Source of the DNA: Prostheceraeus crozeri
Lineage: Eukaryota; Platyhelminthes; Polycladida; Euryleptidae
Direction: 5' to 3'
Length of the DNA stretch: 64,000 bases
Assembly (NCBI GenBank): GCA_907163375.1
Contig: CAJQUW010008641.1
Coordinates: 62,001 to 126,000 of the forward strand
This document shows, piece after piece, positions 1,711 through 55,248 of the stretch. Position numbers and translations under genes: made by a program. The notes beneath the pieces were generated by a model. That model was not told the origin of the DNA, did not search any database, and saw nothing but the letters and a program-made list of their open reading frames with translations. The stretch's first letter is position 1. Every line of letters begins with the position of its first letter.

Positions 1711-1726
1711 GTAGTAGTAATAAAAC

Positions 1727-1975
1727 GGCGAACACCCGACCGGCGCGCCCCCCCTCTGGAACGTGAGCCAGAGGTTGCGCTCTCCAAGGTGTCGTGGTGT
1801 GCCGGCCAGGCTGCGCGGCCGCTCCCATCGTGTTTCTCGTCAAACGTTGGGTGAACACCCGACCGGCGCCCCCCCTCTGGAACGTGAGAGGTTGCGGTCT
1901 GTCGTGGTGTGCCGGCCAGGCTGGCGTGGTGTGCCGACCAGGTTGGCCGCTCCCATCGTTGACAGCAATCGGAGA
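1727..1975. repeat. Left terminal inverted repeat of the palindrome, duplicated end
   Basis: The terminal sequence cacccgaccggcg, followed by a C-run and ctctggaacgtgag, occurs twice (about 1,733 and 1,856). The second occurrence is preceded by the small hairpin gggtgaacaccc. The same block is inverted at 19,790-19,883, so it is the terminal inverted repeat. Only the left end carries it in duplicate. The first 20 bases after the junction (1,711-1,730) have no counterpart at the right end. The local base composition is much richer in GC than the rest of the window. Confidence 0.75.
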
Positions 1976-2109
1976 GAAGGAATGTTCGCTGACGTCCCCC
2001 CTCCCTTCGATAAACGACAGAGTGTCATGGTGGACTTGGGCGACCGCCAGGTTTTGACTTGGTGCTGTGTGAACATGAATTTTGGGGTGAAAATGGGATG
2101 TTTTGGGCT

Positions 2110-2730
2110 CTAACGTCTAAACGGCTGCTCCAATGGTAGATCTGAGACCAGATTTGGAATCAGCGTCAAATTCTGCATGAGTATGGTGAGTTTCAAGTCA
2201 ATCGCAGAGAAAAAATTTTCGCTGACGCCCCCCCTCGGCACCAAACTTCCAATTTTGCTTCTAGTGATCGTAGAAAGTCGTGCAATAGCTCGTTTGAAAG
2301 CTAAGAGTGAGACAAATTCAGTGAAAGAAACGGCTTGTTCATATCTCTCTTCGTTTAGGTGTGAGACGCCATTTAAGATTTTGGGACATTGGCGAAAAAC
2401 GACAGAGTTAGAATTTTGGACGTTTTGGGCTGTAGCTTCAAAACGAAGCATCGGATGGGAAAACGGATTTCAGATTTTGAATCAGCGTCAAATTCTCTAT
2501 CAACATGGTGAGTTTCAAGTCAATCGGAGAGAAAAAATTTTTCTTCACGAAATTTTTTCGAAAAAACGAGTTAGAATTTTTGCGATGGCTGTGGGCTGTA
2601 GAGCCAAAACGAAGCATCGGATGGGAAAACGGAGGACAGATTTGGATTCAGCGTCAAATTCTACATTGAAATGGTGTATTTCCAGCTCAATCGAACCTCC
2701 AGAATCGGTGATAGAAGCGTTTTAAGTTTT
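2110..2730. repeat. Left subterminal repeats
   Basis: The motif tcagcgtcaaattct recurs near 2,162, 2,483 and 2,651, and tggtgagtttcaagtcaatc near 2,184 and 2,505, each with an aatcggagagaaaaa-like tail. The mirrored right block (about 18,850-19,620) carries four occurrences instead of three. A 182-codon frame spans this block, but it repeats the same nucleotide motifs in different frames and is not a credible gene. Confidence 0.75.
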
Positions 2731-2743
2731 TGGATGATGGATA

Positions 2744-2830
2744 TTACGTCATCAGCTGATCGCCACACACTATATAAGCGGAAACCGACAGAGACTTTTC
2801 ATTTAGAGGAGAGCGATTGTCAAAGGTAGG
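2744..2830 (+). promoter_or_regulatory. Left outer inward-facing core promoter with 5' splice site
   Basis: A TATA box (tatataa, 2,771-2,777) faces the centre of the palindrome. Just upstream are a CRE-like site ttacgtca (2,744-2,751) and the E-box cagctg (2,753-2,758). About 55 bases downstream of the TATA box, caaag|gtaggt (intron from 2,826) is a good splice donor. Family knowledge: such spacing is normal for RNA polymerase II. Inference: it could make a leader spliced to genes further in. No acceptor is proven. Confidence 0.5.
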
Positions 2831-3239
2831 TCGTCTCTCTGAGCTCCGATGATAGCTTCGGACATTCCAAATTCCGGGTTTCTGTAAGAAACCGAGTTAG
2901 AAAATTTCTTTGCTGAAGTCAGCTAAGGCGTCAGACTTAGAGGTTCGTCAGGAGATGGCCTTCGTCTCCAGGCCATAAAAGACTCCAAAACTTTAATGGC
3001 TTGTAACTTTGCTTCTACAAGTCCGTTTGACTTGATTCAAAAAAGGTTCGGTCGCTATTGACCTGCCATAAGTGATAGACTACTGATAAAATTTCATAAG
3101 TAGTGCTAAAAAGTTGAAAAAATTAAATTCACTAGTTTTGGAGGTTTTCTGGGATTTTCGACCCTGCTGAAGTCAATGAAAGGATTTTTAATGATGTCTG
3201 AGCCAGTGTTCTCATGGTATAAGCGGCTTTTCACTGAAA
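2831..3239. other. Gene-free part of left arm
   Basis: No open frame of note and no recognisable repeat. The text is mirrored with few changes at about 18,343-18,751. If the donor at 2,826 is used, this is intron. Confidence 0.6.
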
Positions 3240-3790
3240 GCGAGCAAGACACGGAGAGTTTTGCTGTAATATTCCACTGACAGGGTGTTCCTTCGGGACG
3301 GCGGACGATGCCGTAGTGATAAGTGTGGCAAGGGAGTGTGTCATATTTTAGACCGAAACCGCTGGGAACAACTCATGTCTCATGTTGGGCGTATGACATA
3401 GTTCTCAACGTAGCACTTTGAACGCCAATCGGTTGAGTCTTAGCTATCTTGTCATGGGTGGCCTCTAAACATCTCCATTGCAAAACGCTGGTGAATCAAG
3501 CTCTCTACGGCTTGCTATCAAGCTGTCAAAGTCTGTGAACCTCTTACCAACTCTACAGGTTTTCATGTCTGGCGATCAAGTCATGGACGGTGCAAGTCAC
3601 GGAGATTTTCGGTGTGATACTTCCTGTGAGTGGGCGTTCTTTCAAGACAGCGGTGAAGTCCGTAGCGATGAGTACTGCACGGGACGTGGGCAATGGTAAT
3701 CCTTGTGAAACCTCTCTGCGTCATGGTTGCAAGTGGTTGCCTTTCGTCTCAACGTTGTACTCTGACCGCCAGGGCGACATTTAGCTATCT
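3240..3790. repeat. Diverged tandem duplication of about 280 bp (left arm)
   Basis: Two related blocks follow each other. Each holds a cacggaga motif, a cluster resembling gacggcggacgatgccgtag or cagcggtgaagtccgtagcg, then ttagctatct and atctccattgcac/a. The right arm holds the mirror image at about 17,792-18,342. Over the second block the arms differ visibly at one base (a V/E change in an incidental frame). Short frames of 64-73 codons here are not convincing as genes. Confidence 0.6.
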
Positions 3791-3984
3791 GCCACAGGTT
3801 ACCACATAAAATCTCCATTGCACTTGTCTCCCGATAGTTGACCAACCATGCGAGAATGAACCATCAGTTCTTTTAAGAACTGTCTCTATCACGGAGACGA
3901 AATGATGAAGGGATGAAACGGGAGGACATTCATGCGCCACACGCAACACATCACAGACTTCTCTCTTCGCTAGTGAACAAGCTC

Positions 3985-5380
3985 TTGTCAGTGTCGTCAG
4001 AAAGTGTATCATGGTTTGCAAAAGCAAAGTTTAGCAAAATAGTTTACTGCGACGCACGTTTGTGAAAATAAAGTTTAATCATCTAAGGTTTATTTCCAAG
4101 TTTAGTCAGAAACTTTATCATGTTGTACAAAAGTTTTACTGCAGCACAGCTTGATGTATAGTCAGAAAGTTTGATCATTGAAGTTGTATTGGTGAGTGTC
4201 GTCAGAAAGTGTATCATGGTTTGCAAAAGCAAAGTTTAGCCAAATAGTTTACTGCGACGAACGTTTGTAAAAATAAAGTTTAATCATCTAAGGTTTATTT
4301 CCAAGTTTAGTCAGAAAGTGTATCATGTTGTACAAAAGTTTTACTGCAGCACAGCTTGATGTATAGTCAGAAAGTTTGATCATTGAAGTTGTATTGGTGA
4401 GTGTCGTCAGAAAGTGTATCATGGTTTGCAAAAGCAAAGTTTAGTCAAATCGTTTACCGTGACACATGTTTGAGAAAATAAAGTTTGATCATGACGTTTA
4501 TTCGTGAGTGTCGTCAGAAAGTGTATCATGGTTTGCAAAAGTTTTACTGCTACACTGGTTGATGTATAGTTAGAAAGTTTGATCATGACGTTTATTCGTA
4601 AGTCTAGTCAGAAAGTGTATCATGTTGTACAAAAGTTTTACTCTAGCACAGGTTGATGTATAGTTAGAAAGTTTGATCATTGAAGTTGTATTCGTAAGTC
4701 TAGTCAGAAACTTTATCATGTCGTACAAAAGTTTTACTACAACACAGGTTGATGTATAGTTAGAAAGTTTAATCATCGAAGGTTTATTTGCAAGTTTAGT
4801 CAGAAAGTGTATCATGGTTTGCAAAACCAAAGTTTAATCAAATCGTTTACTGCGACGCACGTTTGTAAAAGTAAAGTTTGATCATTGAAGTTGTATTCGC
4901 AAGTCTAGTCAGAAAGTGTATCATGGTTTGCAAAGTTAGTGTAGTCAAATATTTTTACTGCGACACAGATTGATGTATAGTTAGAAAAGTTTGATCATGA
5001 CGTTTTATTTGCAAGTTTAGTCAGAAAGTGTATCATGGTTTGCAAAAGCAAAGTTTAGTCAAATCTTTTACCGTGACACATGTTTGAGAAAATAAAGGTT
5101 GATCATGACGTTTATTCGTGAGTGTCGTCAGAAAGTGTATCATGGTTTGTAAAAGTTTTACTGCTACACAGGTTGATGTATAGTTAGAAAAGTTTGATCA
5201 TGACGTTTTATGAAACACAAGTGTCATAAAATGTAAGCGTTAGTGTAGGCAACTAGTTTTGCCTCACACGTTTGTAAAGGTAAAGTTTGATCATTGAAGT
5301 TTTACGAAACACAAGTGTCATAAAATATAAGCGTTAGTGTAGTCAACTAGTTTTACACAGTGTAGATTGTCTTGTAACTT
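3985..5380. repeat. Left outer tandem array, type I (about 105 bp modules)
   Basis: Repeating modules contain gtcagaaagtgtatcatg, then tttgcaaaagcaaagttta or tgtacaaaagttttactgc, then gatgtatagttagaaagttt and gatcatgacgtttattcg. Module order varies, which gives a higher-order pattern. The mirrored right array (about 15,570-17,600) is longer. From the position sums, the type I plus type II block of the right arm is 824 bp longer than the left one. Confidence 0.85.
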
Positions 5381-5389
5381 ACTTTCAGA

Positions 5390-5880
5390 GTTAGAATGTT
5401 TATGAAAATCGCTCTGTTTTATCTGTTTGTATGTTAAAAGAAAGCTTCATCAGTTAACAAGTTAAAAATAAAGTTTCACCAGTGTACAAGTTAGAAACAA
5501 AGTTTCAATAGTGTGTACGTTAGAAATAAAGCTTTATCTGTTTGTATGTTAGAAACAAAATGAAGTTTCAACAATTTACAAGATAAAAAATAAAGTTTCA
5601 CCAGTTTACAAGTTAAAAAATGAAGTTTCAATAGTGTGTACGTTAGAAATAAAGTTTTAGCTGTTTGCAAGTTAAAAATAAAGTTTCAATAGTGTGTACG
5701 TTAGAAATAAAGTTTTAGCTGTTTGTATATCAAAATAAAGTTTCAAGAGTTTACAAGTTAGAAATAAAGTTTCAATAGTGTGAATGTTAGAAATGAAGGT
5801 ATGACTGTTTGTAAAAGTAAGATCGCAAGATTTACTAGTTTACAAGTTAGACTAAGTGTAAATTAAAATAAAATTATAAC
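5390..5880. repeat. Left type II tandem array (aataaagtttcaa modules)
   Basis: Degenerate modules of roughly 35-45 bp alternate between gttagaaataaagtttcaat and acaagttaaaaataaagttt. The same module family flanks the gene cassette on its inner side (8,450-9,660). On this strand nearly every module holds AATAAA, a polyadenylation-signal look-alike. Confidence 0.85.
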
Positions 5881-6112
5881 TGTTCACGAGTTAAAGCGTT
5901 GATGCAACGATGAACAATTAATAAGCTGAAAAGTTTTAGATTCACTTTAACATTGCCATATGTTTACAGATAGAAATGTATCACAGCAAAGCTACTTCAT
6001 GAGTTAGTTTGCCAGGAGTGTATCATCTCAAACTTTTACTCCGTCGTTGAAATTTCATGACGACTTTTTTGCTAAACGAAAGTTAACACCAGAGGAGCGT
6101 AGGGGTGGGTGG
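5881..6112 (+). other. Leader segment upstream of gene A
   Basis: A conserved segment (gttaaagcgttgatgcaacg ... ctacttcatgagttagtttg ... ttgaaatt) precedes the gene A TATA box. Its mirror is at about 14,646-14,880. A third copy in the same + orientation lies near the centre at 9,661-9,850. It is probably promoter-proximal sequence; I see no gene in it. Confidence 0.6.
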
Positions 6113-6119
6113 TATAAAA
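6113..6119 (+). promoter_or_regulatory. TATA box of left gene A
   Basis: tataaaa lies 38 bases before the first ATG at 6,151, preceded by a G-rich stretch (ggggtgggtgg). A start site near 6,143 would give a very short 5' leader. Confidence 0.6.
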
Positions 6120-6150
6120 TGCGCCTACAGCACTGAGAGAGTTGGAGTGG

Positions 6151-6592
6151 ATGAGCTATGTACATTCTTTTGACGACGAGAGGAGCGATTCAGCCGATGG
6201 CGCAGGTAGTTTCCCAGAGCATGGAGGACATTGTTTAGGTGACTCTAAGGACGTATGTCGAGCTGCCCTCAGTGATAGGCTTCCAACTCATGATGAATGA
6301 TGATATGCTTACGACCTACATTCAACCATTGGTGTATGCCCACACCCTTCCCCACAACGAGCTTGTCTGCTACATTGTATTCATGAGTGTGGCTCAAAGT
6401 AGGAAATTGATTGATGAGACTTTGCTGAAATATCCAAGGCGCGTATTCAAGCATGGTCGCCTACTGTTGGAGTATTATTATCAATGGCGCGACGACACAC
6501 AACATTTGCCCACCCGTGTTTTACCACACCTATCAACGGAAGAATACAATAGAGCTTTAGTCGAGACGGTGAAAGGAGACGATGAGCGCTAG
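6151..6592 (+). CDS. Gene A, left copy: hypothetical 120-aa protein, one 79-bp intron
   Basis: I read exon 1 as 6,151-6,159 (MSY), intron 6,160-6,238 (gtacat...ttgtttag) and exon 2 as 6,239-6,592. Reasons: the long frame beginning VTLRTYVEL has an in-frame TAG immediately upstream, and that TAG is exactly the AG of a plausible acceptor. The first ATG after the TATA box joins in phase, and gene B has the same layout of a start codon beside a short intron. The protein is soluble-looking, with several short hydrophobic segments (ELVCYIVFMSVAQ) and aromatic clusters (LLLEYYYQW). I recognise no family and no catalytic motif. The right copy is interrupted. The splice model is inference; a start at an unspliced internal ATG is the alternative. 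Confidence 0.5.
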
Positions 6593-6681
6593 TGGGCGAA
6601 TGAAGCATCCGTGAGAGTGGGAATCAACTTGATGCTATTCCCCAATGAGGATTGTTGTCTATTGAGAATCAAGCATTCCTT

Positions 6682-6690
6682 TATAAATAG
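6682..6690 (+). promoter_or_regulatory. TATA box of left gene B
   Basis: tataaatag sits about 106 bases before the gene B start codon and only 90 bases after the gene A stop. Gene B therefore appears to have its own promoter in a very compact layout. The mirror is at about 12,969-12,977. Confidence 0.55.
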
Positions 6691-6787
6691 AGAGCCTTCC
6701 ACAGTGAGAATCATTCCATCGTTGAATCGTACAAGTGACGGACGCACATTCTCTCTCTCTACATCCCTGTTATATTATCCAACTAAA

Positions 6788-7562
6788 ATGGTAAGTCGCT
6801 ACTTTCCTCCCTCTCCTCCCTTGAACGTAAACCTGATAGAATCTTTTTTATTTTCAGGCATCTTCTACATCTACTACAATGACAGGACAAAATGGTGGCC
6901 AGACGTTACAAGGTTCGCTACAATCAGATCATCTACAGCTGAGACCAGTGGAAGAAACAACAAAGGTGCATAATCCTACACCGCTACAGCGTAAATTTAA
7001 GCAAGTCTTGCGTCATGAGGAACACAGCGTAGTACTGCAAACGGGAATGCTCCCTTCCACTGATGTGAAGATATTGAGCAATCAGTATGGGGACTACATA
7101 CTCATCCCCGTGAGTCCGTACACTCGCCACCAACTTGACATTATTGAAGAGTACGTGACATTAAATATGGACATTCCTACTCCTCTTGCTCAAGAGTGGA
7201 AGGCGAGAGATGAAAAGGATACTCCCTATAGAAAGATTTGGGATGGCAATCAAATTTGCCTACCATTATCACATTGGTCTAGTTATTATAAAAAGGATGG
7301 AGATCAATCAATGCCCATCAGATGTGATGAGCTCGGAGAAGGTACTTGGGATATCATTTTCAAAGTGAATGGGCTATATTATGGTCAGCACAAGGATAAC
7401 AAAATAGCCTCTCTTTCGATACACACTGAATCCATCCTATATATTCCAAAGCCACCCAGCGTAGATGACATTATTGACGAAATCCTTAACGGGGGTGGTA
7501 CGAAGCGCAAGTCGGACAAGAATGCTGCATCAAAACGCAAATCAAAGAAGGAGAATTACTAG
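6788..7562 (+). CDS. Gene B, left copy: hypothetical 235-aa basic-tailed protein, one 67-bp intron
   Basis: Exon 1 ends with the start codon itself (ATG 6,788-6,790). The intron is 6,791-6,857 (gtaagt ... pyrimidine-rich ... ttttcag), and exon 2 (6,858-7,562) opens with ASSTSTT. Both splice sites are near consensus and the mirrored copy keeps them. The N-terminus is Ser/Thr/Gln rich and the middle is mixed alpha/beta-looking, with GTWDIIFKVNGLYYGQHK around residues 177-194. The last 20 or so residues are a lysine-rich tail (KRKSDK...KRKSKK) that looks like a bipartite nuclear localisation signal. I do not recognise the family. A nucleic-acid-binding role is suggested only by the tail and by the neighbouring nuclease-like gene. 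Confidence 0.65.
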
Positions 7563-7596
7563 TCCTTTCCTAACTCTACCCTATGACAATTCGCTT

Positions 7597-7722
7597 ATGT
7601 GCTTTGAGTGTCGTGGACGTGGTCTTATTAGATACATTTTACTTCTTCGTTGCCATCGTATCATATGTGTATTTTGTCGTGAAAAGCATCGATGTAATTC
7701 TTCATTTTGTGATATGTTATAG
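7597..7722 (+). CDS. Small RING-like zinc-binding ORF, left copy (41 aa)
   Basis: The frame carries eight possible metal ligands in RING order: C2-x2-C5, C19-H20, C24-x2-C27, C33-x4-C38 (RCHRIICVFC in the middle). The C-H spacing (zero residues) and the last pair (x4) deviate from the canonical C3HC4 RING. It begins 35 bases after the gene B stop and ends 13 bases before gene C, so all three could share one transcript ending at the AATAAA at 8,301. In the right copy the second half is replaced. The frame could also be an exon of gene C, but I could not find a phase-compatible donor. Confidence 0.4.
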   Translation: MCFECRGRGLIRYILLLRCHRIICVFCREKHRCNSSFCDML

Positions 7723-7735
7723 AACGTTTCCTTAG

Positions 7736-8278
7736 ATGTGTAAATTTATGGATTGTGAGGGTGAACCTGTACAGGAGCTCAGTGCTATTGCTATGAACAA
7801 TTGGACATATCAGATTGTTAGTGTCTATCCTCAACATGCCAACTGTGATCCCAATGTTGATCAATGGGCGAGAAAACACATTCATGGACTTAATCTGAAA
7901 TATTTGCAAGACTATGGCTTTTCTTGTGAGACTGCTCTTCTTATTGACTTTAAACGATGGTTAGCTGCTTTCAATGTTATACGCATCTTTTGTAATAATC
8001 CTGGTAAGGAGAGGAAAGTATTTCCCAATCTAGTCATTAATGATATTTTGCTCCCACCTTGGGATAGTAAAGTGAATCAACACTATCATGAAGTCACGAA
8101 ACGTTTTAAGGATTTGTGTGTTCCTATTTTGTCTGTTCGTTGTAGTAGCTACGTTCATGACCAATGCTTCTTTCCTCCTTACCTCAACACTGCCAAAGTC
8201 CTGTATGGTTATCATTGCTCGCTGTATGATAGTTACCAGCTGTATCTATTTTATCTGTTCCAAACCATTGATTTGTAA
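7736..8278 (+). CDS. Gene C, left copy: DEDDh-exonuclease-like protein (180 aa)
   Basis: The N-terminus FMDCEGEPVQELSAI (residues 4-18) resembles an Exo I motif with D6 and E8 after a hydrophobic strand. IHGLNLKYL (49-57) resembles the HG element found in DnaQ-type exonucleases. NNPGKE (87-92) sits where Exo II would be, and a Cys/His-containing segment VRCSSYVHDQC (134-144) sits where Exo III is expected. This is pattern recognition, not a proven homology. The C-terminal 30 residues are hydrophobic and aromatic. It lies downstream of gene B and the RING-like ORF, and AATAAA follows 22 bases after the stop. The right copy lacks MCKF and instead has a longer hydrophobic strand in frame (SIIIFMDCEG), which suggests that the left start has been rearranged. 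Confidence 0.5.
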   Translation: MCKFMDCEGEPVQELSAIAMNNWTYQIVSVYPQHANCDPNVDQWARKHIHGLNLKYLQDYGFSCETALLIDFKRWLAAFNVIRIFCNNPGKERKVFPNLVINDILLPPWDSKVNQHYHEVTKRFKDLCVPILSVRCSSYVHDQCFFPPYLNTAKVLYGYHCSLYDSYQLYLFYLFQTIDL

Positions 8279-8300
8279 TGCATGCTTGTTACAGTTATTC

Positions 8301-8306
8301 AATAAA
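8301..8306 (+). terminator. Polyadenylation signal of the left cassette
   Basis: aataaa 22 bases downstream of the gene C stop codon, followed by a T-rich stretch (gttgttgttttt). The mirror (tttatt) is at 11,397-11,402. Confidence 0.55.
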
Positions 8307-8449
8307 TGTTATCATGCGAAGAGTTGTTGTTTTTATGCAACGGATGGGTTAGATGAAGGGCGATCATATCTTTTTCAAATAACTGTGGAACATTGATTTC
8401 CATGATGAAGATTTAAGCAGTTAGATTCGATGACGAACAAGATTTACTA

Positions 8450-9660
8450 TTTTACAAGGCAAACTAAGCCTTCTATTATTTGTAAATGAAAGATATAGTT
8501 TCAACAGTTTACAGATTAAAAATAAAGTTTCAATAGTGTATGTGTTAGAAATAAAGTTTAAGCTGTTTGTATGTTAGAAATAAAATAAAGTTTCAAGAGT
8601 TTACAAGTTAAAAATAAAGTTTCAACAGTGTGTACGTTAGAAATAAAATTATATCTGTTTGTAAAATAAGATTGCGGGATTTAATAGTTTTTTAAGTTAG
8701 ACTAAGCGTTCTACTATTTGTAAATGAAAGATATAGTTTCAACAGTTTACAGATTAAAAAATAAAGTTTCAATAGTTTGTATGTTAAAAATAAAGTTTAA
8801 GCTGTTTGTGCGTTAGAAATAGAATAAAGTTTCAACAGTTTGTAGATAAAAAATAAAGTTTTAACAGTGTGTACGTTAGAAATAAAATTTTAGCTGTTTG
8901 TAAAATAAGATTGCGGGATTCAATAGTTTGCAAGTTAGACTAAGCGTTCTACTATTTGTAAACGAAAGATATAGTTTCAACAGTTTACAGATTAAAAATA
9001 AAGTTTCAACAGTGTGTACGTTAGAAATAAAGTTTTTTCGGTTTGTAAAGATAAGATTGCGGGATTCAATAAATTGTAAGTTATACTAGGCGTTCTACTA
9101 TTTGTAAATGAAAGATATAGTTTCAACAGTTTACAGATTAAAAAATAAAGTTTCAATAGTTTGCATGTTAAAAATAAAGTTTAAGCTGTTCGCGTGTTAG
9201 AAATAGAATAAAGTTTCAACAGTTTGTAGATTAAAAGTAAAGTTTCAACAGTGTGTACGTTAGAAATAAAGTTTTATCATTTTGTAAAATGAGATTGTAG
9301 GATTTACTAGTTTGCAAGTTAGACTAAGCGTTGTACTATTTGTAAACGAAAGATATAGTTTGAACAGTTTACAGATTAAAAATAAAGTTTCAACCGTTTA
9401 CAAGTTCAAAATAAAGTTTCAACAGTGTTCAATGAAGTTTTATCTGTTTACATGTTAGAAACAAAATGAAGTTTCAACAGTGTGTACGTTGGAAATAAAG
9501 TTTTATCTGTTTGTATGTTAGAAATAAAGTTTTAGCTGCTTGTATGTTAGAAATAAGGGTATAACAGTTTATATTCTAGAAAGAAAGGTATAACTGTTTG
9601 TAAAATAAGATCATAAGATTTACTAGTTTGCAAGTTAGACTAAGCGTTCTACTATTTGTA
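8450..9660. repeat. Inner type II tandem array, left of centre
   Basis: The same aataaagttt module family as 5,390-5,880. Here it forms a higher-order unit in which ataagattgcgggattcaat, gttagactaagcgttctact and aaatgaaagatatagtttca recur about every 190-250 bp. No coding potential. Confidence 0.85.
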
Positions 9661-10189
9661 AATTAAAAATAAAATTATAATTGTTTACAAGTTAAAGCGT
9701 TGATGCGATGATCAGCAATTAATAAGCTGAGAAGCTTTAGATTCACCTTAACATTACCACATGTCTACAGATAGAAATGTATCACAGCAAAGCTACTTCA
9801 TGAGTTAGTTTGCCAGGAGTGTATCATCTCAAACTCTTTCTCCGTTGTTGAAATTTTAGTTTTGTACACATTTGAAGTATCATCATTGCGGTTTGTTCTT
9901 GATGTGTTTACCATGGACGCACACATGAGTCTTATGACACTATGGTTGTATCTTAAACGTTTCGACAAAGACTTAGCGAAGTAAATAAAAATCCAAGTTG
10001 AACATCTCTTAGGTTGTATTATCAAATATCTTAGTATTATACAAAGTTGAGAATGTAAGTTGATCATTTTATCGGAATGTTGTTTTAAAATGAAAGTAAG
10101 AACTTCATCGTATGAGTATTCAAAGCATGTTTTGTAAATCAAATGTGTATAGTACTGACTTGATAGAATCAAACTTGACAAACGTTTTG
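9661..10189. other. Centre of the palindrome: third leader copy plus unique core
   Basis: Bases 9,661-9,850 repeat the leader of 5,881-6,060 in the same orientation (aagcgttgatgcgatgatca ... gagtgtatcatctcaaactc). From about 9,860 to 10,189 the sequence is unique in the window. A 127-codon minus-strand frame covers this area, but it reads through the leader copy, so I do not call it. Inference: a second gene unit once started here and was lost. Confidence 0.6.
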
Positions 10190-11260
10190 CAAACTAGTAA
10201 ATTCTACAATCTCATTTTACAAACAGATATAACTTTATTTCTAACGTACACACTGTTGAAATTTTATTTTTAATCTTCTAAAATCTAAAATCTTCTTAAT
10301 CTTCTAAAACACAAGCAGCTTAAACTTTATTTTTAACATACATACTATTGAGACTTTATTTTAATCTGTAAACTGTTGAAGCTATATCTTTCATTTACAA
10401 ATAGTAGAACGCTTAGTCTAACTTACAAACTATTGAATCCCGCAATCTTTTTTTGCAAACAGATATAACTTTATTTCTAACGTACACACTGTTGAAACTT
10501 TACTTTTAATCTGTAAACTGTTGAAAGTACATCTTTCATTTACAAATAGTGGAACGCTTAGTCTAACTTGCAAACTAGTAAATCTTATGATTTTAATTTA
10601 CAAACTAATAAAACTATATTTCTAACATACACACTGTTGAAACTTTATTTTAAACTTGTAAACGGTTGAAACTTTATTTTATTTCTAACGCGCAAACGAC
10701 TAAAACTTTATTTCTAACGTACACACTGCTGAAACTTTATTTTTAATCTGTAAACTGTTGAAACTATATCTTTCATTTACAAATAGTAGAACGCTTAGTC
10801 TAACTTGCAAACTAGTAAATCCTACAATCTCATTTTACAAACAGCTAAAACTTTATTTCCAACGTAAACACTGTTGAAACTTTATTTTTAACATACAAAC
10901 AGCCTAAACTTTATTTCTAACGTACACACTGTTGAAACTTTATTTTTTAATCTGTAAACTGTTGAAACTATATCTTTCGTTTACAAATAGTAGAACGCTT
11001 AGTCTAACTTACAAACTATTGAATCCCGCAATCTTATTTTACAAACAGATATAATTTTATTTCTAACGTACACACTGTTGAAACTTTATTTTTAACTTGT
11101 AAACTCTTGAAACTTTATTTTATTTCTAACAAGCAAACAGCTTAAACTTTATTTCTAACACGTACACTATTGAAACTTTATTTTTAATCTGTAGACTGTT
11201 GAAACTATATCTTTCATTTACAAATAATAGAAGGCTTAGTTTGACTTGCAAAATAGTAAA
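10190..11260. repeat. Inner type II tandem array, right of centre (inverted)
   Basis: Reverse-complement orientation of the 8,450-9,660 modules (aaactttatttctaacgtac, tgaaactatatctttcattt). Copy number and order differ from the left array. Confidence 0.85.
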
Positions 11261-11424
11261 TCTTGTTCGTCATCGAATCTAACTGTTTAAATCTTCATCA
11301 TGGAAATCAATGTTCCACAGTCATTTGAAAAAGATATGATCGCCCTTCATCTAACCCATCCGTTGCATGAAAACAACAACTCTTCGCATGATAACATTTA
11401 TTGAATAACTGTAACAAGCATGCA

Positions 11425-11973
11425 TTACAAATCAATGGTTTGAAACAGATAAAATAGATACAGCTGGTAACTGTCATATAGCAAGCAATGATAACCATAC
11501 AGGACTTTGGCAGTGTTGAGGTAAGGAGGAAAGAAGCATTGGTCATGAACGTAGCTACTACAACGAACAGACAAAATAGGAACACACAAATCCTTAAAAC
11601 GTTTCGTGACTTCATGATAGTGTTGATTCACTCTACTATCCCAAGGTGGGAGCAAAATATCATTAATGACTAGATTGGGAAATACTTTCCTCTCCTTACC
11701 AGGATTATTACAAAAGATGCGTATAACATTGAAAGCAGCTAACCATCGTTTAAAGTCAATAAGAAGAGCAGTCTCACAAGAAAAGCCATAGTCTTGCAAA
11801 TATTTCAGATTAAGTCCATGAATGTGTTTTCTCGCCCATTGATCAACATTGGGATCACAGTTGGCATGTTGATGATAGACACTAACAATCTGATATGTCC
11901 AATTGTTCATAGCAATAGCACTGAGCTCCTGTACAGGTTCACCCTCACAATCCATAAAAATGATGATAGAAGC
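11425..11973 (-). CDS. Gene C, right copy: DEDDh-exonuclease-like protein
   Basis: Identical to the left copy apart from three visible substitutions (P/H, K/R and S/L) over 176 shared residues. The 5' end differs: the frame is open upstream of MDCEG as ...SIIIF, directly after a plausible acceptor (ccgttttag, ending at 11,974). This fits an internal exon of a spliced gene better than a start at the ATG (11,955). A hydrophobic strand before D-x-E is what DnaQ-like folds normally show. No upstream donor in phase was found. The function is inferred as for the left copy. Confidence 0.5.
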   Translation of the reverse strand, partial: ASIIIFMDCEGEPVQELSAIAMNNWTYQIVSVYHQHANCDPNVDQWARKHIHGLNLKYLQDYGFSCETALLIDFKRWLAAFNVIRIFCNNPGKERKVFPNLVINDILLPPWDSRVNQHYHEVTKRFKDLCVPILSVRCSSYVHDQCFFPPYLNTAKVLYGYHCLLYDSYQLYLFYLFQTIDL

Positions 11974-12061
11974 CTAAAACGGAAATTACACATATGATAT
12001 GATGGCAACGAAGAAGTAAAATGTATCTAATAAGACCACGTCCACGACACTCAAAGCACAT
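11945..12061 (-). pseudogene. RING-like ORF, right copy, C-terminal half replaced
   Basis: The first 24 residues match the left ORF except one R/H change and keep C2, C5, C19, H20 and C24. After IIC the sequence becomes VISVLGFYHHFYGL and overlaps the start of gene C, so three of the eight ligands are lost. The replaced block is 43 bp shorter than in the left arm. Confidence 0.4.
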
Positions 12062-12095
12062 AAGCGAATTGTCATAGGGTAGAGTTAGGAAAGGA

Positions 12096-12870
12096 CTAGT
12101 AATTCTCCTTCTTTGATTTGCGTTTTGATGCAGCATTCTTGTCCGACTTGCGCTTCGTACCACCCCCGTTAAGGATTTCGTCAATAATGTCATCTACGCT
12201 GGGTGGCTTTGGAATATATAGGATGGATTCAGTGTGTATCGAAAGAGAGGCTATTTTGTTATCCTTGTGCTGACCATAATATAGCCCATTCACTTTGAAA
12301 ATGATATCCCAAGTACCTTCTCCGAGCTCATCACATCTGATGGGCATTGATTGATCTCCATCCTTTTTATAATAACTAGACCAATGTGATAATGGTAGGC
12401 AAATTTGATTGCCATCCCAAATCTTTCTATAGGGAGTATCCTTTTCATCTCTCGCCTTCCACTCTTGAGCAAGAGGAGTAGGAATGTCCATATTTAATGT
12501 CACGTACTCTTCAATAATGTCAAGTTGGTGGCGAGTGTACGGACTCACGGGGATGAGTATGTAGTCCCCATACTGATTGCTCAATATCTTCACATCAGTG
12601 GAAGGGAGCATTCCCGTTTGCAGTATTACGCTGTGGTCCTCATGACGCAAGACTTGCTTAAATTTACGCTGTAGCGGTGTAGGATTATGCACCTTTGTTG
12701 TTTCTTCCACTGGTCTCAGCTGTAGATGATCTGATTGTAGCGAACCTTGTAACGTCTGGCCACCATTTTGTCCTGTCAGTGTAGTAGATGTAGAAGATGC
12801 CTGAAAATAAAAAAGATTCTATCAAGTTTACGTTCAAGGGAGGAGAGGGAGGAAAGTAGCGACTTACCAT
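12096..12870 (-). CDS. Gene B, right copy (235 aa), one 67-bp intron
   Basis: The start codon is at 12,870-12,868, the intron is 12,867-12,801 with the same gtaagt and ttttcag sites, and exon 2 runs to 12,096. Visible residue changes from the left copy are M/L near residue 9, E/D and V/I in the HE(D)HSV(I)LQ region. The loss of that internal ATG supports initiation upstream of the intron: an unspliced start at the internal ATG would not be possible here. Confidence 0.65.
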
Positions 12871-12968
12871 TTTAGTTGGATAATATAACAGGATGTAGAG
12901 AGAGAGAGAATGTGCGTCCGTCACTTGTACGATTCAACGATGGAATGATTCTCACTGTGGAAGGCTCT

Positions 12969-12977
12969 CTATTTATA
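12969..12977 (-). promoter_or_regulatory. TATA box of right gene B
   Basis: The reverse complement reads tataaatag, in the same position relative to gene B as in the left arm. Confidence 0.5.
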
Positions 12978-13066
12978 AAGGAATGCTTGATTCTCAATAG
13001 ACAACAATACTCATTGGAGAATAGCATCAAGTTGATTCCCACTTTCACAGATGCTTCATTCGCCCG

Positions 13067-14607
13067 CTAGCGCTCATCGTCTGCTTTCACCGTCTCGACT
13101 AAAGCTCTATAGTATTCTTCCGTTGATAGGTGTGGTAAAACACGGGTAGTGATTTTTTCCAATTTTTTCAAAATTTTCCGGAAAATTTTCCACTGAAAAT
13201 TTTGAAATTTATTTTATGGTGATTGACGTTTTTGCCTTTGTTTTGGAGACTTATTATAGTCGTTTGAAAAGACTATGTAATATTCAAAGACCGGAAACTT
13301 CTCTATCATCCCTGTATGTAACTTTTGTAACCAACTGCACCTTTTTCATGTCTATTTCAGATCCTTCCAAATGAATTTCAGACATTGGATGGATTTCAGA
13401 TTTCTGTAGCTGAATTTCATATATCTGTCAGAAACTCAACTTTGAAAAGATCTTAAATTCAACTGCAGATCTGCAATTCATGTGGATCATATCTGAAATT
13501 CATTTGGGCAGATCTGAAATCGAATTGAAACTATGAACAGAAATGGAGGATGTGTATCCTCAGCGCGAAGATGTCGGAAAATAGACCAGAAATTAGAGGC
13601 TATCATAGATATTCTTTTACTCATCACAGATATCTTTAGTGACCAAATATCTAACGAGTTTACAGTCTTTATGTCTTCCAAAATGGTCGCTCATGAATGC
13701 TGCTTCGACTGTGTGCTTATGCTTCACTTGTTCATCAACACATGGACAATTTGCATCACTGATCAACGCTGCATAATAAAGCTTAACTTTCAAGCTAATA
13801 AGCAAACTCCAAAATGAAGTATATTATTTTTCCTGCCGATCTTTCACATTGCATGAAATTGTGCCGATTGTAAAGCAAGATTCCCAAACGGTGTCTGTGT
13901 GATAGTTAAAAATGCTAACAATTTATAGTACAAGCCACTGCGGTGGCAAAGGAATGTTCAAAAATCCGCGGACGGAACTCATGTTGCTAACGATCGCTCA
14001 ATCGAAATAATGATGAAATTAAGAGTTTTAGACCCAATTTATTGGTACGTGTAGCTGCTTCGGCAGTGGAAGCGCTCAAATTATAAGGCCTATCAAAAAA
14101 ATCAAAGCTTTCAAAATTTTCCAAAATTTTCCATAATTTTCCAATATTTTCCAAAATTTTCCAATATTTTCCAAAATTTTCCACAATTTTCCACGGAAAA
14201 TTTTGATTCAAAATTTTCCGGAAAATTTTCATCACTAAACACGGCTGGGCAAATGTTGTGTGTCGTCGCGCCATTGATAATAATACTCCAACAGTAGGCG
14301 ACCATGCTTGAATACGCGCCTTGGATATTTCAGCAAAGTCTCATCAATCAATTTCCTACTTTGAGCCACACTCATGAATACAATGTAGCAGACAAGCTCG
14401 TTGTGGGGAAGGGTGTGGGCATACACCAATGGTTGAATGTAGGTCGTAAGCATATCATCATTCATCATGAGTTGGAAGCCTATCACTGAGGGCAGCTCGA
14501 CATACGTCCTTAGAGTCACCTAAACAATGTCCTCCATGCTCTGGGAAACTACCTGCGCCATCGGCTGAATCGCTCCTCTCGTCGTCAAAAGAATGTACAT
14601 AGCTCAT
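13067..14607 (-). pseudogene. Gene A, right copy, interrupted by a hAT-type element
   Basis: Exon 1 (14,607-14,599), intron (14,598-14,520) and exon 2 from 14,519 match the left gene A. The frame is then broken inside the QHLP-RV segment by the insertion at 13,147-14,237 and resumes to the stop at 13,067-13,069. Flanking duplicated bases alter one residue (T/S). The left copy is uninterrupted, so only one functional copy of gene A remains. Confidence 0.7.
13147..14237. mobile_element. Non-autonomous hAT-type element (1,091 bp)
   Basis: The intact left gene A gives the empty site. The insert is flanked by the 8-bp direct repeat aacacggg (13,139-13,146) and aacacggc (14,238-14,245). Its ends are inverted: tagtgattttttcc at the left and, reverse-complemented, tagtgatgaaaattttcc at the right. 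An 8-bp duplication and TAG-type ends are typical of hAT transposons. The right end has a string of ccaaaattttcc/ccaatattttcc modules (14,108-14,230). No transposase frame is present. Confidence 0.8.
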
Positions 14608-14638
14608 GCACTCCAACTCTCTCAGCGCTGTAGGCGCA

Positions 14639-14645
14639 TTTTATA
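14639..14645 (-). promoter_or_regulatory. TATA box of right gene A
   Basis: Mirror of the 6,113 site (ttttata on this strand), 32 bases upstream of the right gene A start codon. Confidence 0.5.
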
Positions 14646-14879
14646 CCACCCACCCCTACGCTCCTCTGGTGTTAACTTTCGTTTAGCAAAAAAGTCGTCA
14701 TGAAATTTCAACGACGGAGTAAAAGTTTGAGATGATACACTCCTGGCAAACTAACTCATGAAGTAGCTTTGCTGTGATACATTTCTATCTGTAAACATAT
14801 GGCAATGTTAAAGTGAATCTAAAACTTTTCAGCTTATTAATTGTTCATCGTTGCATCAACGCTTTAACTCGTGAACAGT

Positions 14880-15560
14880 TATAATTTTATTTTAATTTAC
14901 ACTTAGTCTAACTTGTAAACTAGTAAATCTTGCGATCTTACTTTTACAAACAGTCATACCTTCATTTCTAACATTCACACTATTGAAACTTTATTTCTAA
15001 CTTGTAAACTCTTGAAACTTTATTTTGATATAAAAACAGCTAAAACTTTATTTCTAACGCATACACTATTGAAACTTCATTTTTAACTTGTAAACTGGTG
15101 AAACTTTATTTTTTATCTTGCAAACAGCTAAAACTTTATTTCTAACGTACACACTATTGAAACTTTAATTTTTATCTTGTAAACTGTTGAAACTTTATTT
15201 TGTTTCTAACATACAAACAGTTAACCTTTATTTCTAACATATACACTATTGAAACTTTGTTTCTAACTTGTACACTGGTGAAACTTTATTTTTTATCTTG
15301 CAAACAGCTAAAACTTTATTTCTAACGTACATACTATTGAAACTTTATTTTTAACTTGTAAACTGGTGAAACTTTATTTTTTATCTTGTAAATTGTTGAA
15401 ACTTCGTTTTGTTTCTAACATACAAACAGATAAAGCTTTATTTCTAACGTACACACTATTGAAACTTTGTTTCTAACTTGTACACTGGTGAAACTTTATT
15501 TTTAACTTGTTAACTGATGAAGCTTTCTTTTAACATACAAACAGATAAAACAGAGCGATT
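14880..15560. repeat. Right type II tandem array
   Basis: Inverted aataaagttt modules mirroring 5,390-5,880, with extra modules. Confidence 0.8.
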
Positions 15561-15569
15561 TTCATAAAC

Positions 15570-17600
15570 ATTCTAACTCTGAAAGTAAGTTACAAGACAA
15601 TCTACACTGTGTAAAACTAGTTGACTACACTAACGCTTATATTTTATGACACTTGTGTTTCGTAAAACTTCAATGATCAAACTTTACTTTTACAAACGTG
15701 TGAGGTAAAACTAGTTGCCTACACTAACGCTTACATTTTATGACACTTGTGTTTCATAAAACGTCATGACCAAACTTTTCTAACTATACATCCAGCTGTG
15801 TCGCAGTAAAAATATTTGACTACACTAACTTTGCAAACCATGATACACCTTCTGACTAGACTTACGAATACAACTTCAATGATCAAACTTTACTTTTACA
15901 AACGTGTGAGGTAAAACTAATTGACTACACTGACGCTTACATTTTATTACACTTGTGTTTCATAAAACGTCATGATCAAACTTTTCTAACTATACATCAA
16001 CCTGTGTAGCAGTAAAACTTTTACAAACCATGATACACTTTCTGACTACACTCACGAATAAACGTCATGATCAAACTTTATTTTCTCAAACATGTGTCAC
16101 CGTAAAAGATTTGACTAAACTTTGCTTTTGCAGACCATGATACACTTTCTGACTAAACTTGCAAATAAAACGTCATGATCAAACTTTTGTAACTATACAT
16201 CAATCTGTGTCGCAGTAAAAATATTTGACTACACTAACTTTGCAAACCATGATACACTTTCTGACTAGACTTACGAATAGAACTTCAATGATCAAACTTT
16301 CTAACTATACATCAACCTGTGCTAGAGTAAAACTTTTGTACAACATGATACACTTTCTGACTAGACTTACGAATAAACGTCATGATCAAACTTTCTAACT
16401 ATACATCAACCAGTGTAGCAGTAAAACTTTTGCAAACCATGATACACTTTCTGACGACACTCACGAATAAACGTCATGATCAAACTTTATTTTCTCAAAC
16501 ATGTGTCACGGTAAACGATTTGACTAAACTTTGCTTTTGCAGACCATGATACACTTTCTGACTAAACTTGCAAATAAAACGTCATGATCAAACTTTTGTA
16601 ACTATACATCAATCTGTGTCGCAGTAAAAATATTTGACTACACTAACTTTGCAAACCATGATACACTTTCTGACTAGACTTGCGAATACAACTTTAATGA
16701 TCAAACTTTACTTTTACAAACGTGCGTCGCAGTAAACGATTTGATTAAACTTTGGTTTTGCAAACCATGATACACTTTCTGACTAAACTTGCAAATAAAC
16801 CTTCGATGATTAAACTTTCTAACTATACATCAACCTGTGTTGTAGTAAAACTTTTGTACGACATGATAAAGTTTCTGACTAGACTTACGAATACAACTTC
16901 AATGATCAAACTTTCTAACTATACATCAACCTGTGCTAGAGTAAAACTTTTGTACAACATGATACACTTTCTGACTAGACTTACGAATAAACGTCATGAT
17001 CAAACTTTCTAACTATACATCAACCAGTGTAGCAGTAAAACTTTTGCAAACCATGATACACTTTCTGACGACACTCACGAATAAACGTCATGATCAAACT
17101 TTATTTTCTCAAACATGTGTCACGGTAAACGATTTGACTAAACTTTGCTTTTGCAAACCATGATACACTTTCTGACGACACTCACCAATACAACTTCAAT
17201 GATCAAACTTTCTGACTATACATCAAGCTGTGCTGCAGTAAAACTTTTGTACAACATGATACACTTTCTGACTAAACTTGGAAATAAACCTTAGATGATT
17301 AAACTTTATTTTTACAAACGTTCGTCGCAGTAAACTATTTGGCTAAACTTTGCTTTTGCAAACCATGATACACTTTCTGACGACACTCACCAATACAACT
17401 TCAATGATCAAACTTTCTGACTATACATCAAGCTGTGCTGCAGTAAAACTTTTGTACAACATGATAAAGTTTCTGACTAAACTTGGAAATAAACCTTAGA
17501 TGATTAAACTTTATTTTCACAAACGTGCGTCGCAGTAAACTATTTTGCTAAACTTTGCTTTTGCAAACCATGATACACTTTCTGACGACACTGACAAGAG
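15570..17600. repeat. Right outer type I tandem array
   Basis: Inverted modules mirroring 3,985-5,380 (catgatacactttctgac, aactatacatcaacctgtg, aacgtcatgatcaaacttt). It includes a stretch present in about two near-identical runs (16,020-16,440 and 16,440-16,700) that explains much of its greater length. Confidence 0.85.
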
Positions 17601-17791
17601 CTTGTTCACTAGCGAAGAGAGAAGTCTGTGATGTGTTGCGTGTGGCGCATGAATGTCCTCCCGTTTCATCCCTTCATCATTTCGTCTCCGTGATAGAGAC
17701 AGTTCTTAAAAGAACTGATGGTTCATTCTCGCATGGTTGGTCAACTATCGGGAGACAAGTGCAATGGAGATTTTATGTGGTAACCTGTGGC

Positions 17792-18342
17792 AGATAGCTA
17801 AATGTCGCCCTGGCGGTCAGAGTACAACGTTGAGACGAAAGGCAACCACTTGCAACCATGACGCAGAGAGGTTTCACAAGGATTACCATTGCCCACGTCC
17901 CGTGCAGTACTCATCGCTACGGACTTCTCCGCTGTCTTGAAAGAACGCCCACTCACAGGAAGTATCACACCGAAAATCTCCGTGACTTGCACCGTCCATG
18001 ACTTGATCGCCAGACATGAAAACCTGTAGAGTTGGTAAGAGGTTCACAGACTTTGACAGCTTGATGGCAAGCCGTAGAGAGCTTGATTCACCAGCGTTTT
18101 GCAATGGAGATGTTTAGAGGCCACCCATGACAAGATAGCTAAGACTCAACCGATTGGCGTTCAAAGTGCTACGTTGAGAACTATGTCATATGCCCAACAT
18201 GAGGCATGAGTTGTTCCCAGCGGTTTCGGTCTAAAATATGACACACTCCCTTGCCACACTTATCACTACGGCATCGTCCGCCGTCCCGAAGGAACACCCT
18301 GTCAGTGGAATATTACAGCAACATTCTCCGTGTCTTGCTCGC
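17792..18342. repeat. Diverged tandem duplication (right arm)
   Basis: Mirror of 3,240-3,790 with very few base changes. Confidence 0.6.
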
Positions 18343-18755
18343 TTTCAGTGAAAAGCCGCTTATACCATGAGAACACTGGCTCAGACATCATTAAAAATCC
18401 TTTCATTGACTTCAGCAGGGTCGAAAATCCCAGAAAACCTCCAAAACTAGTGAATTTAATTTTTTCAACTTTTTAGCACTACTTATGAAATTTTATCAGT
18501 AGTCTATCACTTATGGCAGGTCAATAGCGACCGAACCTTTTTTGAATCAAGTCAAACGGACTTGTAGAAGCAAAGTTACAAGCCATTAAAGTTTTGGAGT
18601 CTTTTATGGCCTGGAGACGAAGGCCATCTCCTGACGAACCTCTAAGTCTGACGCCTTAGCTGACTTCAGCAATGAAATTTTCTAAGTCGGTTTCTTACAG
18701 AAACCCGGAATTTGGAATGTCCGAAGCTATCATCGGAGCTCAGAGAGACGACCTA
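18343..18755. other. Gene-free part of right arm
   Basis: Mirror of 2,827-3,239. No coding potential or further repeat is seen. Confidence 0.55.
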
Positions 18756-18838
18756 CCTTTGACAATCGCTCTCCTCTAAATGAAAAGTCTCTGTCGGTTT
18801 CCGCTTATATAGTGTGTGGCGATCAGCTGATGACGTAA
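18756..18838 (-). promoter_or_regulatory. Right outer inward-facing core promoter with 5' splice site
   Basis: Mirror of 2,744-2,826: TATA box at 18,805-18,811, E-box and CRE-like tgacgtaa just upstream, and donor at 18,756/18,755. All three elements are conserved between the arms. Confidence 0.5.
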
Positions 18839-18849
18839 TACCTATCATC

Positions 18850-19620
18850 CAAAAACTTAAAACGCTTCTATCACCGATTCTGGAGGTTCGATTGAGCTGG
18901 AAATACACCACTTCAATGTAGAATTTGACGCTGAATCCAAATCTGTCCTCCGTTTTCCCATCCAATGCTTCGTTTTGGCTCTACAGCCCACAGCCATCGC
19001 AAAAATTCTAACTCGTTTTTTCGAAAAAATTTCGTGAAGAAAAATTTTTTCTCTCCGATTGACTTGAAACTCACCATGTTGATAGAGAATTTGACGCTGA
19101 TTCAAAATCTGAAATCCGTTTTCCCATCCGATGCTTCGTTTTGGCGCTACAGCCCAAAACGTCTAAAATTCTAACTATCGTTTTTCGCCAATCTCCCAAA
19201 ATCTTAAATGGCGTCTCACATCTAAACGAAGACAGATATGAACAAGCCGTTTCTTTCACTGAATTTGTCTCACTCCTAGCTTTCAAACGAGCTATTGCAC
19301 GACTTTCTACGATCACTAGAAGAAAATTGGAAGTTTGGTGCCGGGGGGGGGGGGCGTCAGCGAAAATTTTTTCTCTCCGATTGCTTTCAAATTCACCATA
19401 CAAATGCAGAATTTGACGCTGATTCCGAATCTGGCCTCCGTTTTCCCATCCGATGCTTCGTTTTGGCGCTACTGCCCAAAACCAACCCACATTTTCCGTT
19501 AACTCTGTCGTTTTCCCGAAAAATGTTGAAAATTTTTTCTCTCCGATTGACTTTAAACTCACCATACTGATGCAGAATTTGACGCTGATTCCAAATCTGG
19601 TCTCAGATCTACCATTGGAG
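18850..19620. repeat. Right subterminal repeats
   Basis: The motif agaatttgacgctgat recurs near 18,920, 19,087, 19,409 and 19,574, one more time than in the left arm. It includes a run of about 12 G (19,343-19,354). Confidence 0.7.
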
Positions 19621-19789
19621 TAGCCTTTTAGTCGCTAGAGCCCAAAACATCCCATTTTCACCCCAAAATTCATGTTCACACAGCACCAAGTCAAAACCTG
19701 GCGGTCGCCCAAGTCCACCACGGCACTCTGTCGTTTATCGAAGGGAGGGGGGGACGTCAGCGAACATTCCTTCTCTCCGATTGCTGTCA

Positions 19790-19883
19790 ACGATGGGAGC
19801 GGCCAACCTGGCCGGCACACCACGACAGACCGCAACCTCTCACGTTCCAGAGGGGGGGGCGCCGGTCGGATGTTTGCATCCGA
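19790..19883. repeat. Right terminal inverted repeat of the palindrome
   Basis: The reverse complement of the left terminus (ctcacgttccagag, G-run, gccggtcgg). The last bases form a small hairpin, cggatg-caaa-catccg on the minus strand, before flanking repeat DNA resumes at 19,884. Confidence 0.7.
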
Positions 19884-23136: not shown

Positions 23137-24170
23137 GTATTCGACTTTGAAAACGCATTTGCAAATGTTTAGAAAAATGTTCCATGATTGGTCCGTTTTT
23201 TAATCAGTAGTATAGTTTATTTACTGAATTGCAGTTATAGCTTACAAAACTTCAAACCTGATCTGATGAATTAAACAACTACCTCGTAATACAAGTAATT
23301 TTGCTACTTTATTCAAACAAAAGTACTAGCATAATAGGCACTAATTTTTGCAACATTTGAGTTCAGAGAGGCAATAAACTCAAATGATGGCACCAAAATG
23401 AAAAAATCAACCATCCATCCTCTTAATTGGCTTCAATGAATCGCCTGCAGCAGCTATGCCATGCTCCCGCCTTTTGTAAGCTTTTAACAGTAGCACAGCT
23501 AAATCCGGACAAGGGCTCGACAACAGGCAGGGAATGGAAATTGCTGAACATGCACCAACATCACCAATTCATTTTGCAACAGTTTCATTATAGTCAATTG
23601 CAGACATCTGAGCAGAATCAGCGAGCAGCTAATTAGTAAGGAAAAAATTCATTGCAGAATTTCAATTTTTTAGATGTGAATTTTCTTGATGTACCGGCTT
23701 TACCAGAAATTGCATCAGTGCAAAGCACAGTCACGCTCATCGGAGATAAACAGCAATTTAATATTAAGATGATATTCAGTTACATTAGGCAAGCTCAAGT
23801 ATATCGTGCAAACTCTACATTTTCTCTCAGACAAATTGCAACCGCAATTAATTACTATGAATGATGATCTACTGTAGTAACCATCGGATGCCTGAGCCAT
23901 GGCATTGAGGTACAAGAAAACGATTATATCCTTCCTACGATATTATTGCACTTTGTTTGGCTGTGTCAATAATCTAATTTCCCAGCAACCGCTCTTGTTG
24001 TATTTATAGTCTCAAGTTTGTAATTTCGCAGCACGTGGGAATAGAATTACATCGATTGCTCCATTTCAATTACAGTAAACATACACAGTACATAGTCTAA
24101 GCACCATTTTCTACTACAGAACGTGCGAGTTGGCATTTTTCTTCATTCTTTTTGACAATCCGATCTACAA
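23137..24170. other. Unassigned sequence
   Basis: AT-rich, with only short frames (at most 70 codons). No repeat, splice-bounded exon or domain that I can support. Confidence 0.5.
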
Positions 24171-24512
24171 TTTGCCATGCGCAAACGTCTCGTTTCTACC
24201 AAAAATGTGACATTTTCTGAATTCTCCTCTAAACTCTATGCGTTTGTCTTCCTATGCACCCTTAGATGACGCCTTTGTCAATGCTAAGCATCTTCACAAT
24301 AGTCACAGGTACCTCCATGTCAAATTTCATTGTTGTATCATGACATTTGCCATGCGCAAACGTATCGTTTGTACCAAAAATGTCACATTTTGTGACTTCT
24401 CCTCTAAACTCTATGCGTTTTTCATCCTATGCACCCTTAGATGATAAGTTTTTCAATGCTGAGCATCTACACAATAGTCACAGGTACCTCCATGTTAAAT
24501 TTCGTTGCATCT
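24171..24512. repeat. Inverted 175-bp monomers, left (about two copies)
   Basis: Two units in the orientation opposite to the array at 28,855-31,620. Key words: tttgccatgcgcaaacg, accaaaaatgt, cacaggtacctccatg. Confidence 0.85.
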
Positions 24513-28645: not shown

Positions 28646-28854
28646 TTTATAGTGGGCTTCCTGCTGGAAAATGTTTTCATTTAATTGCCACAGCCCCTGG
28701 TGTAAGTGTCGATGAAATCGGACAACTGGAAAATCTGAATTTACGCAAAGAAAAGCTACATCTTGATCTATCATTTCTTGAAAAATGCCGTGAAAATGAT
28801 GTTATTCCAAGATTTATTACCGACAATTGTCATGATGTCTCGTCACAGGTCATG
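28646..28854 (+). pseudogene. Possible Penelope-like N-terminal fragment
   Basis: The open frame includes LNLRKEKLHLDLSFLEKCR followed by ENDVIPRFI, resembling the Lys/Leu-rich stretch and iPkfl motif near the N-terminus of Penelope-like proteins. The fragment is short and the resemblance loose. Confidence 0.25.
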
Positions 28855-55077: not shown

Positions 55078-55248
55078 AATTCCCTCTCTTCTCTATTTGA
55101 AGGAAAATACCTAAAAATAAGTCTCTTGAAAACTCACTACTAAAAAGAGCTATAAAAACTAAAAGAACAAAATGCACTGTGACTAGCGTAGAGAAAAAGC
55201 ACCAGAAGAATATGGAGAATTGACAAACTCAGTTTGCTTCAAGTTCGC

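Follow-up and report, generated by a model that had tools for sequence, protein, structure and literature searches.

A high-copy family of palindromic, gene-bearing elements with Maverick-type ends in Prostheceraeus crozeri: candidate satellites of Mavericks

How does a mobile element multiply if it is built as one long palindrome, carries the same genes in both arms and encodes no recognizable transposase? The question is raised by a stretch of 64,000 nucleotides of Prostheceraeus crozeri DNA (contig CAJQUW010008641.1, positions 62,001 to 126,000; hereafter the window, meaning this whole stretch), in which an earlier note had described a giant palindromic element with open reading frames (ORFs) A, B, RING-like, and C in each arm. 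We propose that the element is probably a self-complementary mobile satellite that is replicated and integrated by Mavericks (Polintons), with Mavericks as its presumed helpers. The Maverick-type ends and target duplications of other copies, the kinship of the two arms within each element, and the predicted folds of proteins B and C are described below, together with the explanations that compete with this reading.

Protein B, used as query against the assembly that contains the window (2.05 Gb, 14,165 contigs), uncovered a high-copy family that the earlier note, which had advised looking for other copies, had missed: the genome holds 14,134 first-look candidates for gene B, a figure that is not a copy count. 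The best 150 of these candidates were scored and are 94-100% identical, 139 of them without an inner stop. Among these 150 places, 46 pairs consist of a plus-strand gene followed by a minus-strand gene within 25 kb (start-to-start spacing 2.5-16.2 kb, median 6.6 kb), pairs in other orientations number 0, and 58 places are unpaired among the matches listed. Six elements, picked since both of their B genes were listed (C3790, C11490, C7295, C10735, C7058, and C12685), were partly read; all six are palindromes with A, B, RING, and C in both arms. In C1175 and C13370, C is absent from the left arm; the right arm of C1175 has it. The four copies measured are 14.4-22.8 kb long. The element family is abundant and recently active, and an assembly artefact at one locus is excluded because many other paired copies exist, namely the 46 convergent pairs and the six elements read.

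Outer stretches were fetched for nine elements, and both ends are in hand for six of them (the right ends of C3790, C11490, and C8745 lie outside the fetched stretches). All six have exact 6-bp target duplications just outside their 5'-AGTAGT...ACTACT-3' termini: GTCATA in C12685, CCGAGA in C10735, GGCGCA in C7058, TTCGTC in C7295, TAAACC in C5048, and AAGCTA in C6325, where one of three candidate right ends compared fitted. The palindrome family thus has both the 6-bp target duplication and the (AGT)2//(ACT)2 end motif that are reported for vertebrate Mavericks (excerpt of PMC8097293). Because the termini and target duplications are of the Maverick/Polinton type, integration by a Maverick-type integrase is favoured over a new foldback chemistry, and Maverick-type integration of the palindromes is well supported. 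Of the interpretation in the earlier note, the foldback-like mobile element, possibly a head-to-head linear replicon, stands, whereas a new foldback chemistry is disfavoured.

Candidate helpers were found in the same genome, where Pfam DNA_pol_B_2 has 18,708 first-look candidates; the best 88 were scored, every listed match is over the cut-off, and open frames of about 1,200 amino acids contain many of them. One Maverick family was read in two near-identical copies, C6120 and C8277. The C6120 copy encodes PolB, an A32-type ATPase, a double-jelly-roll-like domain, and an rve integrase; the C8277 copy starts with AGTAGTTTATAG preceded by AAAGCT and ends with CTATAAACTACT followed by AAAGCT (a 6-bp duplication), and has a terminal repeat of 786 bp at 99.7%. 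The palindromes and this Maverick family share the (AGT)2 end and the 6-bp duplication. The terminal repeats of the palindrome and of this single Maverick family have a best E of 0.010, which is not significant, and no cassette match, as DNA or as protein, was found in the Maverick loci read. In the C6120 copy, the integrase ORF also includes a phospholipase A2-like domain, and one small protein weakly resembles adenovirus PX (E 0.0086); four TTACTACT motifs lie in a short repeat inside the Maverick (L049:8448-8690, L051:9153-9395), some kilobases from its right end. Among the palindromes, a second end type is seen in C10735, C7295, C3790, C11490, C6325, and C5048, in which a GCGCAAGATGGCC-like stretch, which we take to be a YY1-like site, stands just inside the terminus, where the window copy has a GC-rich repeat.

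The window copy itself occupies about 1713-19880, with its axis near 10184. The two inverted arms claimed for it are real, pairing over long stretches: 2406-5190/16392-19176, 6766-7675/11983-12892, and 5647-6521/14237-15111 at 99% and 7745-8690/11013-11958 at 98%, besides further pairs, while gapped alignment gives 97.0% over 3,230 columns for 2089-5304 against 19496-16278 and 91.0% over 3,024 columns for 6512-9515 against 13147-10218. From the outside inwards, each arm consists of a GC-rich terminal repeat, a subterminal repeat, minisatellites, a promoter-like region, ORFs A, B, RING-like, and C, and an inner minisatellite; the terminal repeats, minisatellite arrays, ORFs, and TATA-like boxes (read by eye) that had been ascribed to both arms were found in both. 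The gene sets are less equal than had been stated, however: a 1,091-bp insertion at 13147-14237 splits the right-arm gene A, and the right-arm RING ORF is missing its 3' part. This insertion appears hAT-like, judged by its ends (TAGTGA...TCACTA) and the near-8-bp duplication of its flanks (AACACGGG/AACACGGC, 7/8 alike) alone. The bounds of the palindrome also needed correction, since its outer start is AGTAGTAA at 1713 and the terminal ACTACT is missing from its right end, which leaves this copy without a visible target duplication. The inward end of the left arm is CTTGACAAACG at 10184, and the right arm is truncated at the axis. The features of the window copy are as follows.

1713..1720, plus strand: left outer terminus AGTAGTAA, a Maverick-type (AGT)2 end; AGTAGT also begins every other left end read
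1728..1990, no strand: GC-rich terminal repeat, its first motif twice in the left arm (1728, 1851)
1990..2800, no strand: subterminal repeat unit, in tandem in other elements
2771..2831, plus strand: TATA-like box, then a possible splice donor (putative leader exon), by sequence reading
3990..5850, no strand: left-arm minisatellite arrays
6290..6592, plus strand: gene A, ORF from MMNDD, 100 codons, start uncertain
6788..7562, plus strand: gene B, ATG 6788-6790, probable intron 6791-6857 (gtaagt..ttttcag), exon 6858-7562 (predicted splicing)
7597..7722, plus strand: RING-like Cys/His ORF, possibly spliced to C, by ORF reading alone
7748..8278, plus strand: gene C, predicted DEDDh exonuclease with ECHC zinc residues
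8463..9600, no strand: left-arm inner minisatellite array
9661..9856, no strand: second copy of the gene-A promoter region with no gene behind it, by repeat and gapped arm comparison
10174..10184, no strand: left-arm inner terminus and palindrome axis, CTTGACAAACG
11425..11955, minus strand: gene C, right arm
12096..12870, minus strand: gene B, right arm, protein 99% identical to the left
13147..14237, no strand: later insertion with hAT-like ends inside the right-arm gene A
14960..17595, no strand: right-arm minisatellite arrays
19528..19880, no strand: right terminal repeat, terminal ACTACT lost

Comparison of arms bears on how the palindromes stay palindromic. From B to C (about 1,520 bases), the two arms of the six elements read differ at 0, 1, 1, 2, 0, and 3 bases, the window arms at 11 of 1,421 bases, and different elements at 3-48 bases. 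C1175 and C13370 were omitted here, as their missing C distorts the rows, and a comparison of B alone was used instead; among its 20 arms, the closest one is the partner arm in 5 of 8 elements, and in the other 3 the partner ties for closest. In C13321, one TAG is present in B of both arms, which have equal scores, and variants in the first 60 bases of the two ends are shared within an element. Since partner arms are nearest or tied-nearest in all eight elements, the palindrome is renewed or homogenised element by element.

Such likeness might also arise in the same satellite if ordinary gene conversion acted on the arms once inserted, instead of a hairpin renewing them in replication, an account that we consider rather unlikely. 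Palindromic arms, for example on sex chromosomes, are known to convert each other, and the window arms, even with their 11 differences, still pair together; yet an arm-to-arm divergence of 0-3 bases, as opposed to up to 48 between elements, and the variants shared by the first 60 bases of both ends argue against it. Seven axes were read, those of the six elements and of the window. Only that of C12685 is almost perfectly symmetric, around ACAAACG/CGTTTGT; at five others, the inner terminus is kept in one arm (with one base changed in C11490) and the partner is truncated; and the centre of C10735 differs from the other six. The kinship of partner arms and the almost perfect C12685 axis agree with passage through a hairpin. 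A separate feature is that five of seven centres (L010, L012, L015, L018, and L021) have CGCG at their joints, as if fold-back or joining prefers a self-complementary tetranucleotide.

The cassette genes differ in how well they can be interpreted. The ratio of nonsynonymous to synonymous polymorphism (pN/pS) is 0.27 for B, 0.43 for C, and 0.37 for RING, and for this reason their products seem to matter to the element; the ratio for gene A is 1.87, and its coding status is unsure. An in-frame TAG lies upstream of the MMNDD start of gene A, so no start is settled and the search used the open part alone, which has one relative, at 98%. Reading gene A through the upstream TAG was rejected: the TAG stands in the printed translation of 9 of 13 stretches, the left and right stretches of C11490 are untranslated in that frame, and L004 and L005 are without a match. 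No clear donor was found for a splice of the RING ORF to C.

Protein B has an OB-type fold like that of gp2.5 and giant-virus single-stranded DNA-binding proteins and is a predicted gp2.5-like single-stranded DNA-binding protein. It shares this fold with T7 gp2.5, Enc34, CP312R of African swine fever virus (ASFV), and the giant-virus proteins, but its sequence identity to them is 6-15%, and its C-terminal tail is basic, whereas that of gp2.5 is acidic. Protein C keeps the residues of DxE, the motif II acid, and HxxxxD (D6 in 19/19, E8 in 21/21, and E92, H160, and D165 in 26/26 of the rows covering each) and combines a DEDDh fold with ECHC zinc residues, as in MAEL and arenavirus nucleoprotein. 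By these residues, it is a predicted exonuclease of the DEDDh type whose zinc residues are the ECHC set also seen in protist Maelstrom and in arenavirus nucleoprotein; by its relatives, it is a putative RNA exonuclease. MAEL-domain proteins and the arenavirus nucleoprotein exonuclease share with C the DnaQ-type fold and the DEDDh catalytic and ECHC zinc residues; unlike them, C stands alone as a protein of about 180 amino acids, and none of the 26 members scanned matches Pfam Maelstrom. RNase_T matches at E<=10 were obtained for 5 of the 26 members (best 8.1e-5; P0027 is under Pfam's cut-off), and a Maelstrom entry is not among the 50 matches listed for the C fold, which counts as no test.

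PHROGs and NCBIfam gave no match below E 0.05, and a sequence search of the PDB nothing below E 0.1. The 15 window ORFs scanned contain no polymerase, integrase, capsid, ATPase, or P- or MULE-type transposase (ORFs of the other elements were not scanned singly), which bears out the absence of transposase, integrase, and polymerase stated previously; their sole match is a weak DUF7774 (E 0.014) within the later insertion. The idea that large centres hide a transposase was dropped, as 10 kb read from the centre of C11490 contain no ORF of 90 amino acids.

These genes might instead derive from a DNA virus not seen here, larger than the palindrome, bounded by (AGT)2 ends, and carrying A, B, RING, and C. 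The palindrome would be a snap-back form (symmetric, defective-type) of one of its ends, and the family would then spread with that virus and not with the Mavericks read. This is improbable in our view. The fold of B is closest to giant-virus and ASFV single-stranded DNA-binding proteins, relatives of B and C are present on other contigs, and a second gene-A promoter copy stands just before the axis without a gene, as if further genes had been cut off. Symmetric recombinants of adenovirus have one genome end doubled into a long palindrome, and snap-back genomes are a known by-product in adeno-associated virus (excerpt of PMC8235507), where a doubled genome end likewise gives a long palindrome. 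Those forms, however, are by-products of virus growth, whereas the present family is inherited and high in copy number. Furthermore, IMG/VR holds no relative of B or C, GTDB genomes and phage records hold none of B (C was not searched there), and the six elements read carry no cassette gene beyond C, nor does the C11490 centre offer an ORF of the size sought. That the element is an autonomous foldback-type transposon, moved by A, B, RING, and C through an unknown chemistry and Maverick-like at its ends by convergence, is very doubtful, for although B is mostly intact in many copies and the pN/pS values suggest products important to the element, the 6-bp duplications and (AGT)2 ends agree with Maverick insertions, the fold matches of B and C are single-stranded DNA-binding proteins and exonucleases rather than strand-transfer enzymes, and no transposase was detected in the window ORFs.

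For the satellite of Mavericks that we prefer, we infer the helper steps, the renewal by fold-back, and the role of C as follows. The Maverick protein-primed polymerase would start in trans at the (AGT)2 ends of the linear palindrome, and B would coat the single strands freed by strand-displacing replication. Because the DNA of the element is self-complementary, a single strand can fold into one long hairpin; freed strands would thus fold back, and copying or repair round the hairpin would turn one arm into a copy of the other, renewing the palindrome in each round. The Maverick integrase would then insert the product in trans with a 6-bp duplication. Read-through across the axis from the convergent arms should give double-stranded RNA, and since proteins of the C type degrade RNA, C may counter silencing by destroying such RNA, blunting RNA interference or the PIWI-interacting RNA (piRNA) response.

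The family can be compared with several known systems. Mavericks share its 5'-AGTAGT...ACTACT-3' termini and 6-bp target duplications and have many polymerase frames in the same genome; they differ in that the window palindrome is without a detected polymerase, integrase, capsid, or ATPase, the whole element is palindromic, and B and C are unmatched in the Maverick loci read. Foldback/TU and Galileo elements resemble it in their very long inverted arms with internal or tandem repeats, but the palindrome arms carry a gene set, have no single-copy middle, and lack a P- or MULE-type transposase of their own in the window ORFs, while Galileo has a P-type transposase (excerpt of PMC3573991). Virophages, polinton-like viruses, and transpovirons are likewise mobile DNA tied to a larger DNA virus; unlike them, the palindrome is without a detected capsid or polymerase. 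We know of no gene set of the A/B/RING/C type in these three groups. B and C fall into known folds, and neither the same gene layout nor a palindromic gene-bearing Maverick derivative was found described in the titles and abstract openings listed from the open-licence literature, which is no proof of absence.

It is possible, though we put it forward tentatively, that these elements form a new class among eukaryotic mobile elements: Maverick satellites that bear genes, are obligately palindromic, spread as self-complementary DNA which fold-back renews in every round, and have their own suppressor of the unavoidable double-stranded RNA. If so, a virus-like transposon would have a gene-bearing parasite, for which a single 2-Gb genome yields many thousands of first-look candidates. 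It also becomes testable whether Mavericks provide functions for replication and integration in trans, and by what means very long palindromes persist and spread. A candidate link would also be drawn between Maelstrom-type nucleases of small-RNA silencing and parasite nucleases directed against double-stranded-RNA sensing.

Elsewhere in the window, a 175-bp tandem array of about 16 copies occupies 28854-31620, and an array of similar period lies at 24170-24507. The regions 36686-39212 and 52239-59471 contain ORFs that resemble, by eye, non-LTR (long terminal repeat) reverse transcriptase, Harbinger-type transposase, and Ty3- and Copia-type retroelement proteins.

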